NCBI RefSeq assembly: GCF_900109955.1
Contig: NZ_FOJB01000001.1
Span: 372,001-436,000 of the forward strand
Length of the DNA: 64,000 nt
Reading direction: 5' to 3'
From: Aliiroseovarius sediminilitoris
GTDB taxonomy: Bacteria; Pseudomonadota; Alphaproteobacteria; Rhodobacterales; Rhodobacteraceae
Shown: positions 39,383 to 43,566 of the stretch, one piece after another
Layout: each line of letters starts with the position of its first letter
How positions within the stretch are numbered: position 1 is the stretch's first letter
Position numbers and translations under genes: made by a program
The notes under the pieces: model-generated
The model's input: only the letters and a program-made list of their open reading frames with translations
Databases searched by the model: none
Told to the model about the DNA's origin: nothing

Positions 39383-39753
39383 GTGTTTCTCCTCGCAGAG
39401 AAGGCCATGGACACTTGCGCAAATACGCATGTTTCACTAGGCGTTGTCTCTGCAACTTCCTTTGTTGCACCCGTGTGGCGGCTTGATGCGAGCACTACTT
39501 CGTCTTGCCGTCACACACCTGTCTCCCAAGCATCGGCTCAGCAGGCAGAAAGAGCCTCGCTGCACTGCGGCGGACTTTGCAACACTGCAAGGGTCGTAGC
39601 GCTGCAATTATTAACGTGTGCTGCAACTTTCAGCACAATGACTCGCGAAAGCTCATTTTTCACGCAGTAGAGGTTTGGTGGGTGCCAGATGTCAGATTTC
39701 GATGGTCTTAAACGCGTATGTGGCAAGAAATATGGGTACCTCTGATAAACGAG
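39383..39753. promoter_or_regulatory. divergent control region between urtA and ureD
   Basis: This stretch separates the transporter operon (minus) from the urease operon (plus). It holds a cluster of TGCA-centred elements: CTGCACTGCGG (39560-39570), the perfect repeat TTGCA-ACAC-TGCAA (39577-39590), a CTGCAA half-site (39602) and the perfect repeat GTGCTG-N7-CAGCAC (39618-39636). These look like operator sites. No clear sigma-54 promoter (TGGCAC-N5-TTGC) was seen, although nitrogen control would be expected. Confidence 0.5.
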
Positions 39754-39826
39754 ATGTCCCATCAACCGGCCCACGCACATAAAGCATCCTGAAGCGACAC
39801 AGATCCAGCCGCGCGCCATCGGCGGC

Positions 39827-40600
39827 GTGAATCTCACTGTTGTAGCTGCGGGGACGCAAACCCGTTTGCGCAATCTTAGGCAATCGGGCTCTTTGAAATG
39901 CTTGTTCCCGCGCAAAGCTGAGGGTGGGTGCGAAGCCGTTTTGGTAAACACCGCAGGCGGCGTGACCGGAGGAGACCGGTTTACAGTTGCTGCAACGGCG
40001 CAAACAGATGCTCACTTAACCATCACGACCCAAGCATCCGAACGCGCTTATGCAAGTGTGGGTGAAGATAGCGGGCACATCACAAGCGCCCTGACCGTCA
40101 AAAGCGGCGGTCATCTGAACTGGCTTCCGCAAGAAACGATCCTGTTTAACAATTGCCATCTAAAGCGATCCCTCCATGTCGCGCTGGAACAAGGCGCGTC
40201 TGCGTTAATTTGTGAGCCGGTGATCTTCGGGCGGGCGCTGATGGGAGAGCAACTTTCCAACGCGCAGTTTGAAGATCGGGTGGAAATCACACGAAACGGC
40301 AAACCTGTTTTTCTGGACCAAGTTAGGTTGCGCGCCAACATCGAGAATACATTGTCGCGTCCTCACATCGCGGGCAGCAACCGCGCCATGGTGTCTTTGG
40401 TCTACATCGCGCCGGACGCAGAAGCCCGCTTGACGACGATACGGAGTTTGCTGCCAGAAACTGGCGCCGCAAGTCTGATCCAAGAAGACCAACTGGTGTG
40501 CCGGATACTCGCACCCGATGGATACCTGCTGCGCAAGCATCTGCTACCAGCCCTTAACCTCCTGACACGCAATCAACTGCCTAAATGCTGGATAATCTGA
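39827..40600 (+). CDS. ureD: urease accessory protein UreD (start uncertain, possible frameshift)
   Basis: UreD (UreH) helps load nickel into apo-urease with UreF and UreG. The core is clear: [60 protein letters not shown], and [20 protein letters not shown] at the end. A GTG at 39827 gives 257 residues, shorter than usual. Upstream in the same frame lies QIQPRAIGG, which resembles the conserved UreD N-terminus, but there is no standard start codon before the in-frame stop at 39746. An ATG at 39754 in another frame reads MSHQPAHAHKAS and stops at 39790; one base removed there would join both parts. Confidence 0.88.
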
Positions 40601-40601
40601 C

Positions 40602-40904
40602 ATGAACCTAACTCCCCGAGAAAAGGACAAGCTGCTCGTTGCCATGGCCGCCGAGGTCGCGCGCAAACGGCTGTCCCGTGGCGTGAAGCTCAACCATCCT
40701 GAAGCCATCGCCTTGATCACGGATGCAGTGGTCGAAGGCGCGCGCGACGGACGGTCGGTCGCTGACATGATGGAGGCCGGTGCTGAAATCGTTTCACGCA
40801 ATCAATGCATGGATGGGATCGCCGAGATGATCCACGAAATCCAGGTCGAGGCTACGTTTCCAGACGGAACAAAGCTCGTCACCGTTCACAACCCCATTCG
40901 CTAA
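40602..40904 (+). CDS. ureA: urease gamma subunit
   Basis: A 100-residue structural subunit with [40 protein letters not shown] and [18 protein letters not shown], which is the diagnostic UreA set. It joins UreB and UreC in the urease trimer. The gene starts 1 base after the ureD stop. Confidence 0.98.
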
Positions 40905-40914
40905 GGAGAATCCA

Positions 40915-41085
40915 ATGCGCAACCTTGCTGCTCTTCTGCTCACCTCAACGCCCGCATTCGCACATGCTGATCGACTGCCTCATGCCCATGGGTCTGAAGC
41001 CTATTGGGTTGCTGCTGGCGTCATTGTGATCGCGCTCGCAGGACTGGGCATATTTCGACTGCAAAAACTGCGTGCCAGCAAATGA
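40915..41085 (+). CDS. small His-rich membrane protein encoded inside the urease operon
   Basis: A 56-residue open frame begins at ATG 40915, after the ribosome site TAAGGAGAA, and ends in a TGA that overlaps the ureB start (ATGA). It encodes a signal-like N-terminus ([16 protein letters not shown]), a short His-rich stretch ([10 protein letters not shown]) and one membrane helix ([18 protein letters not shown]) with a basic end. If the first segment is cleaved, the His-rich part would face the periplasm. A nickel or metal-related role is a guess from context. I do not recognise a named family. Tight spacing and a good ribosome site make it a likely real gene. Confidence 0.7.
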
Positions 41086-41387
41086 TCCCCGGAGAGCTGT
41101 TTCCTGCCGCGGGTGAAATTACCCTGAATGCGGATCGCGAAGCGATCACGCTGATGGTCGCCAATACCGGGGACCGCCCGGTGCAAGTCGGCAGTCATTA
41201 TCACTTTGCAGAAAGCAACACGGCGTTGGATTTCGACCGCGATGCGGCGCATGGCATGCGGCTTGATATTGCGGCCGGTACTGCCGTTCGGTTCGAACCG
41301 GGTCAGCGGCGCGAAGTAAACCTTATCCCCTTTTCCGGTGGTCGAAAGATATTTGGGTTTAACCAAAAAGTTATGGGAGCACTCTGA
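41082..41387 (+). CDS. ureB: urease beta subunit
   Basis: A 101-residue structural subunit with [40 protein letters not shown] and [20 protein letters not shown], typical of UreB. The ATG at 41082 overlaps the stop of the small upstream ORF by 4 bases; the open frame further up is not UreB-like. It overlaps ureC by one base. Confidence 0.97.
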
Positions 41388-43129
41388 TGCCCGCCACGAT
41401 TTCCCGCGCTGACTATGCCGCCATGTTTGGCCCGACCACGGGGGACAAACTGCGACTGGCTGACACCGATTTGGTCATCGAGGTTGAACGCGATCTGACC
41501 GCCGATTTGGCGGCCGGTCAGGGCAATCAACCGCTTTACGGGGAAGAGGTGAAATTCGGCGGCGGCAAAGTGATCCGCGACGGGATGGGGCAGGCTCAGA
41601 CCACACGTGCCCAAGGCGCGGTGGATACGGTGATCACCAATGCGCTGATCGTTGACCACACGGGGATCTACAAGGCAGATGTGGGTCTGAAAGACGGACG
41701 TATTGCCGGAATTGGCAAGGCGGGCAACCCGGATACGCAGCCGGGTGTGAACATCATCGTCGGACCGGGCACCGAGGCCATCGCAGGCGAGGGTCGCATC
41801 CTTACGGCTGGTGGTTTCGACAGCCATATCCATTTCATTTGCCCACAACAGATCGAAGACGCGTTGCACTCGGGCCTCACCACCATGTTGGGTGGTGGAA
41901 CGGGTCCGGCCCATGGAACGCTTGCCACCACCTGCACACCAGGACCGTGGCACATCGGGCGGATGCTTCAAGCTGCGGACGCCTTCCCGATGAACCTAGC
42001 GTTTGCCGGAAAGGGGAATGCGTCGTTGCCGGCCGCTTTGGAAGAACAAGTGCTGGGCGGGGCCTGCGCGCTGAAGCTGCACGAAGACTGGGGCACAACG
42101 CCGGGCGCGATTGATTGCTGCCTGTCCGTGGCCGATGCCATGGATGTGCAGGTGATGATTCACACGGATACGCTGAATGAAAGCGGGTTTGTTGAAAACA
42201 CCGTTGCCGCCATGAAAGGGCGCACGATTCATGCCTTCCACACCGAAGGCGCAGGCGGCGGGCACGCGCCGGACATCATCAAAATATGTGGCGAAGACCA
42301 CGTGCTGCCATCCTCGACCAACCCAACGCGTCCCTTTACCGTGAACACGCTTGAAGAGCATCTGGACATGCTGATGGTCTGCCACCATCTGGACAAATCG
42401 ATCCCTGAAGACGTCGCCTTCGCCGAAAGCCGGATCCGTCGCGAGACCATCGCAGCAGAAGATATTCTGCATGACATGGGCGCGTTCTCGATCATCGCGT
42501 CCGACAGCCAGGCGATGGGCCGCGTGGGTGAGGTGCTGATCCGCACGTGGCAAACTGCTGACAAGATGAAGAAACAGCGCGGGCGGCTCTCGGAAGAGAC
42601 CGGAGACAACGACAATTTCCGGGTTCGCCGGTATGTGGCGAAATACACGATCAATCCGGCAATCGCACACGGGATCGGGCGCGAAATCGGGTCGATTGAA
42701 GTCGGCAAACGCGCAGATCTGGTCCTTTGGAGCCCTGCGTTCTTTGGTGTGAAGCCCGAAATGGTGCTGATCGGCGGCACGATTGCCATGGCACAAATGG
42801 GCGACCCGAATGCTTCGATCCCAACACCACAGCCCGTATATTCCCGGCCCATGTTTGGCGCCTATGGACGATCCGTTGAGAACTCGGCCGTTTGCTTTGT
42901 AAGCGAAGCTGCACAGACTTCGGGCATCCGCTCTGCTCTGGGATTGGCCAAGCAAACCGTCGCCGTGCAAAACACCCGGAACATCGGGAAAAAGGACCTG
43001 ATGCTCAACCACGCGACGCCTGAAATTGAAGTGAACCCCGAAACATATGAAGTGCGTGCAGACGGCGAACTTCTGACTTGCCAACCCGCCGAGACCCTGC
43101 CGATGGCGCAACGGTACTTTCTGTTCTGA
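41387..43129 (+). CDS. ureC: urease alpha (catalytic) subunit
   Basis: A 580-residue nickel hydrolase that splits urea to ammonia and carbamate. Metal-site and active-site features: [20 protein letters not shown], the carbamylated Lys in [54 protein letters not shown] and the catalytic His in [20 protein letters not shown]. The length is slightly above the usual 567-570. Overlap with ureB and ureE is one base each. Confidence 0.98.
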
Positions 43130-43566
43130 TGTCGCTTCCTGTTTGTCATAAGATTGAACACAGCCACCACGCGGATGACCGCGTGACGCTTGACTATGAA
43201 GGCCGTTTCCTGCGCAGAAAGGTGCTGACGACTGACGGTGGTATCCGGTTTCTTGTCGATCTCAGCCAGACCACCTCTGTCAATCAAAGCGACGCCTTTG
43301 TTCTAGAAGATGGCCGGTTGATTCAGGTGGTGCCAGCCGCCGAAGATCTGTTGGAAGTCACGGGCGATCTGATCCGGCTTGCCTGGCATATCGGCAACCG
43401 TCACATGCCCTGCCAGATCGAAGCCGACCGGCTTTTGATCCAGCGCGACCATGTGATCCGGGACATGCTTGGGAAGCTCGGGGCCGATGTCTGCGAGGTG
43501 CATGAACCCTTCACACCAGAAGGGGGCGCCTATGGACATGGACGCACTCATGCCCATGCGCATTGA
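43129..43566 (+). CDS. ureE: urease accessory protein UreE (nickel chaperone)
   Basis: A 145-residue nickel carrier. The N-terminal domain has DRVTLDYEGRFLRRKVLTTD and FLVDLSQTTSV; the C-terminal part has HIGNRHMPCQIEADRLLIQR with metal-binding His, and a short His tail in HGRTHAHAH. Start ATG 43129 overlaps the ureC stop by one base. The 3' end overlaps ureF by 35 bases. Confidence 0.93.
   Translation: MSLPVCHKIEHSHHADDRVTLDYEGRFLRRKVLTTDGGIRFLVDLSQTTSVNQSDAFVLEDGRLIQVVPAAEDLLEVTGDLIRLAWHIGNRHMPCQIEADRLLIQRDHVIRDMLGKLGADVCEVHEPFTPEGGAYGHGRTHAHAH

Follow-up and report, generated by a model that had tools for sequence, protein, structure and literature searches.

A histidine-led one-helix protein encoded between ureA and ureB in Rhodobacteraceae, a candidate nickel- or cobalt-capture peptide

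Introduction

What is the role of a 56-codon open reading frame (ORF) that lies between the genes of two urease subunits? The question is raised by a 64,000-nt stretch of the Aliiroseovarius sediminilitoris contig NZ_FOJB01000001.1 (the whole stretch is called the window, and coordinates are window positions), in which the ORF occupies 40915–41085 on the forward strand, between ureA (urease gamma) and ureB (urease beta). A preliminary description had called its product a histidine-rich membrane protein with a possible part in nickel supply or in the placement of urease. Here, the ORF in this slot was followed through the genus, the family Rhodobacteraceae and the class. The best explanation, to which we give a probability of roughly 0.55, is that it encodes a membrane-anchored peptide that would capture nickel or cobalt on the periplasmic side and help to supply the neighbouring enzyme. 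This explanation is preferred because the neighbours of the slot ORF and its relatives share the metal, and because the protein carries a histidine-led N-terminus, predicted to be periplasmic, to which its histidines are confined and which stands on a membrane tether.

Results

The slot ORF is a conserved gene

The slot ORF proved to be a genuine gene that is conserved and kept by purifying selection. Urease gamma was present in 154 of the 198 genomes of the family sample (one genome per genus) and in 7 of the 21 genus genomes. From these, 155 stretches around ureA were fetched, which together with the window made 156; ureA and ureB were close together in 155 of them, the other one (L254) being without ureB. 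In 52 of 56 sampled ureA–ureB gaps of 140–230 bp, the expected frame contains an A-x-A-H motif at the right distance from its end; of the remaining four, one (L156) has an ORF of this kind in a different frame. When the two other frames of these 56 gaps were read, a stop was met in 95 of 112 readings.

The preliminary description had proposed a comparison of synonymous with non-synonymous change, and this was carried out. Between the window and its nearest relative (L218, 70% identity), there were 21.2 synonymous changes over 45.2 sites and 23.8 non-synonymous changes over 122.8 sites, with a ratio of non-synonymous to synonymous rates (dN/dS) of 0.30. The ratio was 0.09–0.17 among a trio of genus-mates and 0.12–0.35 in Sulfitobacter pairs with at least six changes; for comparison, ureB showed 0.05–0.13 in seven of the pairs used for the slot ORF.

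The contents of the gap were classified, by script and by reading, at 150 loci of the family sample, with gaps under 100 bp called empty. The small ORF was present in 51 of them, including L221, which was first filed under other contents and reassigned on reading. Neither a lack of homologues in related gaps nor a broken frame in close relatives was found, because these 51 loci carry the ORF and the frame is intact in L218. A strict filter gave the slot ORF in 17 of 80 named loci; among the carriers are named species of Ruegeria, Tritonibacter, Roseovarius, Limimaricola, Nioella and Phaeobacter, and also Sulfitobacter plasmids (Sulfitobacter indolifex DSM 14862 is one carrier). Seven genus genomes have ureA, and five of these carry the ORF (the window, G009, G005, G015 and G018), while G004 has a ureA–ureB gap of 9 bp and G012 a distant ureA without ureB.

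The expectation that gene callers would easily miss so short an ORF was not borne out. All 12 plasmid records that were opened annotate it, though without a name of its own: 11 as hypothetical protein and one as 'peptidase M23'. The latter label, on the slot protein of Ruegeria sp. THAF33 (WP_152460018.1; L118, 6319–6480), is impossible for a 53-residue protein with one helix. In the Pfam scan the sole match of the window protein was DUF6732 (PF20506; 17.5 bits, E 0.0037), below the cut-off of 27 bits, so that membership was rejected and the window protein is regarded as a relative only. The NCBIfam scan of the window protein returned no match.

The histidines are confined to the predicted mature N-terminus

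The window protein begins with a predicted signal peptide (residues 1–16; 40915–40962) ending in A-F-A, with the cleavage site predicted from the sequence and from an alignment of 54 slot proteins. The predicted mature N-terminus follows, 10 residues with His17, His23 and His25 (40963–40992), and then a predicted membrane helix at about residues 31–47 (41005–41055) and a basic C-terminus, KLRASK. The signal-like N-terminus and the one helix with a basic end agree with what had been described. The helix is supported by two observations: the hydropathy peak is 2.45 over 17 residues, and AlphaFold2, given an 18-row alignment of named relatives, placed a helix at residues 28–55. The mean confidence score of the model (pLDDT) was 88–95 over residues 31–56 (91, 95 and 88 for the three final blocks); the N-terminal part was less certain (60–71).

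In the 54-row alignment, Met1 and His17 were invariant and Ala14, Ala16, His23 and His25 were conserved at 90% or more, the invariance of His17 being partly by construction, since the ORF filter required A-x-A-H. The 18-row alignment, which was also chosen by motif, showed the same conserved columns. Each of the 54 proteins has a single hydrophobic stretch and ends in basic residues. The first 14 mature residues contained on average 3.7 histidines (at least three in 51 of 54), and the mean after residue 16 of the mature part was 0.02. The term histidine-rich was generous for the window protein, which has three histidines only; the cluster itself was confirmed, as all three lie at the predicted mature N-terminus.

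Relatives stand beside other nickel and cobalt enzymes

Across 289 genomes of the class, the profile of the 54 slot proteins gave twelve matches at E up to 0.001: nine in ureA–ureB gaps (three in the window's family and six in five other families), one before CbiX and two at neither place. In the family sample, 86 of the 198 genomes had a match. Outside urease, 12 places matched at E up to 1e-5, of which seven lay behind gdmH, two were DUF6732 genes, one lay between hupL and hupC, one (L353) matched in the signal only and one was left without inspection of its neighbourhood. Of the places matched in the family sample, 20 were fetched. Ten lay behind gdmH and a His-rich 150-residue protein, two between hupL and hupC, one before CbiX and two in ureA–ureB slots, and five were none of these. 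Eight more places were DUF6732 places, and 20 weak ones (E 4e-6 to 1e-3) were left out.

The genes at these places were identified as follows. The best PDB match of the gdmH protein was 7esr/7oi1, 'Probable agmatinase 2' (E 4.9e-160), and its Pfam family is Arginase; we take 7esr/7oi1 to be the guanidine hydrolase of Synechocystis. GdmH is presented in a review as a nickel-dependent enzyme, formerly annotated as agmatinase, whose operon includes nickel-delivery proteins and ABC transporters (PMC12186494). The hupL and hupC genes were recognized by Pfam (NiFeSe_Hases and Ni_hydr_CYTB, the large subunit and the cytochrome b of [NiFe] hydrogenase). The property common to the neighbours is the metal: nickel for urease, guanidine hydrolase and [NiFe] hydrogenase, and cobalt for the cobaltochelatase. 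Seven matches (L353, L358, L363, L364, L365, L372 and L373) are without a nickel or cobalt neighbour, and two of them, L364 and L365, resemble ATP synthase b subunits by eye.

Two other proteins were noted at these places. Between gdmH and the small ORF lies a protein of about 150 residues with a very His-rich start (L347, 3610–4068, and nine similar loci), for which Pfam and NCBIfam gave no match; it is possibly a nickel accessory protein of guanidine hydrolase. L358 (G149:C20, about 83944–84135) is a HupE-like one-helix ORF with the motif ADHLLG, with none of the tested nickel or cobalt genes nearby.

DUF6732 is a relative placed before the cobaltochelatase

DUF6732 was found above its cut-off in 47 of the 198 family genomes. 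It stands directly before CbiX, identified by Pfam, in 31 of the 31 copies checked (30 loci and the copy of the window genome), with a start-to-start distance of 197–284 bp, and because of this constant position a cobalt role of DUF6732 is likely. The copy of the window genome (L217, G000:C1:509488-509697) scored 70.5 bits; in this genome CbiX bears a long tail of histidines, and the precorrin-8X methylmutase CbiC comes next. No paper naming DUF6732 was found in the literature searched.

The relation between the slot family and DUF6732 was assessed by profile–profile comparison. With signals included, the probability was 97% and E was 2.5e-11. With signals removed, the values were 68% and 4.7e-5, and the score of 22.3 compares with 8.0 ± 2.2, maximum 14.7, in 60 column shuffles. 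The comparison of DUF6732 with HupE scored 18.1 against 10.4 ± 2.1 for shuffled columns, the highest of which was 19.5.

Genes are often exchanged in the ureA–ureB gap

In the window's family, genes in the ureA–ureB gap have been exchanged frequently. Apart from the small ORF, the 150 family loci hold a HupE/UreJ nickel permease (14 loci), a 100-residue membrane protein without a Pfam family (nine), an HD-domain protein (PF13328; six), mini-HupE-like ORFs (three) and other contents (12, with DUF1272 among the kinds seen). A tree of UreC (FastTree, 143 rows) required at least 33 changes between small-ORF and other slots, at least 11 between HupE and other slots, and at least 59 for all classes. 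HupE slots adjoin small-ORF slots on this tree (L244 next to L223 and L135; L246 next to L098). In other bacteria, a cyanase gene between ureA and ureB is reported for Acidihalobacter (PMC9062700) and a gene fusion at ureA/ureB for Rhizobiales (PMC5840417).

The locus in the window

All features of the locus lie on the forward strand. ureA (40602–40904) was taken from the ORF list, with a PF00547 match at this place. The ribosome-binding site reported earlier, TAAGGAG (40903–40909), is Shine-Dalgarno-like and 5 nt before the ATG of the slot ORF, its TAA being the stop of ureA; this site, the ORF and its end in ATGA (41082–41085) stand where they had been placed. The TGA of the slot ORF (41083–41085) overlaps the ATG of ureB at 41082. 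The overlap was set aside as evidence for translation coupling, and it is weakly informative because UreB begins with Met-Ile, which gives ATGA whatever stands upstream. Downstream follow ureB (41082–41387), which was assigned from the sequence and served as tblastn query, and ureC (urease alpha; 41387–43129), assigned from the ORF list and relatives. In a scan of 39600–41400 no promoter-like site was found, and the two terminator-like matches were no more than shuffles yield. A short palindrome within the slot ORF was not used as evidence. UreE (43129–43566) has a short C-terminal His tail of the kind usual for the metal tail of UreE.

Discussion

Proposed nickel or cobalt capture and its weak points

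If the slot ORF encodes a metal-capture peptide, we would envisage the following course. The signal would be cut after A-F-A, leaving a mature protein of 40 residues that starts with histidine. The free amine and side chain of His17, with the following HxH, would bind Ni(II), or Ni(II) or Co(II) in the relatives. The one helix, with its basic end predicted to be cytoplasmic, would anchor the peptide in the inner membrane, and the metal would be handed to an uptake route, through a presumed partner permease, that feeds urease maturation by the products of the adjacent ureDEFG. More tentatively, and with odds rather against it, the slot protein might belong to a general class of minimal nickel/cobalt-capture proteins in Alphaproteobacteria, each a single helix with a free N-terminal histidine, one issued beside each nickel or cobalt consumer (urease, guanidine hydrolase, [NiFe] hydrogenase and cobaltochelatase), and might be the missing piece of nickel supply in urease genomes without a HupE/UreJ, CbiM or NicO match.

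Several observations weigh against nickel or cobalt capture. The gap is empty at 55 of the 150 loci in genomes that keep urease, so that the ORF is dispensable on that scale. HupE (at E up to 1e-20) was present at 9 of 50 small-ORF loci versus 13 of 55 empty-slot loci (P 0.63), and at least one of HupE, CbiM and NicO at 35 of 50 versus 36 of 55 (P 0.68); all three were absent in 15 of 50 small-ORF genomes versus 18 of 54 empty-slot genomes. These co-occurrence counts speak against the idea that the slot ORF simply stands in for the three permease families. The small ORF lies behind gdmH in only 10 of the 26 genomes with gdmH (26 of 198 in the family), weaker copies not having been sought in the other 16. 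The matches at the hydrogenase loci (E 3e-6 and 1.4e-5) are no better than those of some unrelated signal-plus-helix proteins (about 3e-5). Finally, the histidines are not absolute: position 23 is Asp in L218, the nearest relative, and the first 14 mature residues of L113 hold a single histidine.

The notion that the slot ORF replaces a missing importer was unsupported by the family-wide test, which covered HupE, CbiM and NicO, with NikABCDE, CorA and other routes outside it. In the window genome itself, no HupE_UreJ, CbiM or NicO match was found at E 0.001. In a published survey, 90% of Roseobacter genomes had hupE/ureJ homologues, which is a broader count than the present one (PMC4771312). 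The nickel link that had been suggested for the ORF is much better supported than before, by the relatives beside other nickel and cobalt enzymes; a simple importer role is not, as no link to the absence of HupE, CbiM or NicO appeared.

Other explanations

The most serious alternative, though an unlikely one, is that the protein serves as small subunit or stabiliser in a membrane complex, such as an uptake permease, the hydrogenase cytochrome b or a tether holding urease to the membrane; its helix would then be the important part, and its histidines would have a structural or sensing role rather than deliver metal. A single helix, a basic end and translation coupled to that of ureB would suit a small subunit, as would the gene's position at the hydrogenase loci, between the large-subunit gene and that of the membrane cytochrome b. 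However, conservation falls on the histidines while the sequence of the helix drifts, and the neighbours share the metal, not one membrane partner.

Somewhat less probable again is a relic of HupE/UreJ, a permease cut down to its signal and first helix and kept mainly for the spacing or coupling of ureA and ureB. The 14 slots with HupE/UreJ favour this explanation, and so do some short slot ORFs. At L202, Pfam identifies the 78-residue ORF as a fragment of HupE (36.3 bits, cut-off 23, positions 4–50), and the ORF of L171 is HupE-like below the cut-off (18.1 bits). A full HupE stands in the nearest rows of L171 and L202 on the UreC tree and in the second nearest row of L190, but the short ORF of L190 has no HupE match in Pfam. 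In-place truncation of HupE has occurred at least once; the main family is not explained by it. Past the signal, the slot family does not align with the HupE profile (hhalign score of the mature part 10.8 versus 9.4 ± 2.3 for shuffled columns) and is closer to DUF6732. Membership in HupE/UreJ was accordingly rejected for the main family, since the window protein has no Pfam match to it and the family has no profile support past the signal, and is retained for L202 and more weakly for L171. Moreover, spacing would be no explanation for the copies behind gdmH, between hupL and hupC, and before CbiX. At L202 (G068:C65, about 77619–77759), the N-terminal quarter of HupE/UreJ is joined to a new basic tail and the frame is open up to the ureB start.

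Capture of copper or zinc, protecting the neighbouring enzyme or uptake route within what would simply be nitrogen or cofactor operons, is improbable: N-terminal His sites frequently favour Cu(II) (RbAng-1a, Cu 74 nM and Ni 220 nM; PMC12537917), but neither the hydrogenase nor the cobalamin operons count as nitrogen operons, and the four kinds of neighbour all use nickel or cobalt.

Significance

No paper describing the slot gene was found in the literature searched. The gene was not invisible, because annotators already call the ORF and Pfam holds the distant DUF6732. What is new is the urease-slot family, its relation to DUF6732 and its recurrence beside four kinds of nickel or cobalt enzyme. 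In a 2009 survey, 62 nickel-using bacteria were counted in which both known and unassigned nickel transporters were lacking (PMC2667541). For nickel uptake in urease-bearing bacteria, the slot protein offers a small and cheap test object, and it points to a possible role for DUF6732.

Comparison with known systems

HupE/UreJ resembles the slot protein in its occurrence in the ureA–ureB gap and in having a signal followed by histidine. It differs in size, with about 180–190 residues and six helices against 56 residues and one helix, and the window protein has no Pfam match to it (PF04955) and no HPxxGxDH motif. The operons described for HupE/UreJ, of hydrogenase, urease and cobalamin, cover the same range as those of the slot family's relatives (PMC7689651).

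DUF6732 shares with the slot protein the signal, the A-x-A-H/D start, a His pair, one helix and a metal-enzyme neighbour. Its acidic C-terminal tail and G-H-x-H-W block are both absent from the window protein, and its gene lies before CbiX, in the cobalamin pathway, whereas the window ORF lies between urease genes. CbtB, a small subunit of cobalt transport, is likewise a protein of about 60 residues with one helix and histidines, but these are at the other end than in the slot protein; the Pfam scan of the window protein at E up to 10 did not return CbtB.

A functional precedent would be proteins that carry histidine at position 1 after the signal. Such proteins were shown to bind nickel or copper, some being fused to HupE/UreJ-2 permeases, and those tied to permeases were named 'anglerases' by the authors (PMC12537917). 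In the slot protein, histidine at mature position 1 is predicted from A-F-A-H and its conservation. As is proposed for the slot protein, Ang-1/Ang-2, DUF4198 and DUF6702 represent membrane-tethered metal capture near nickel or cobalt systems, as far as this source describes them (PMC12537917). Compared by description, they have folded domains of well over 100 residues, with Ang fused to HupE/UreJ-2; the slot protein, in contrast, has about 12 residues before its one helix, a short loop in the model. It is a candidate for the smallest natural metal-capture device with an N-terminal histidine.
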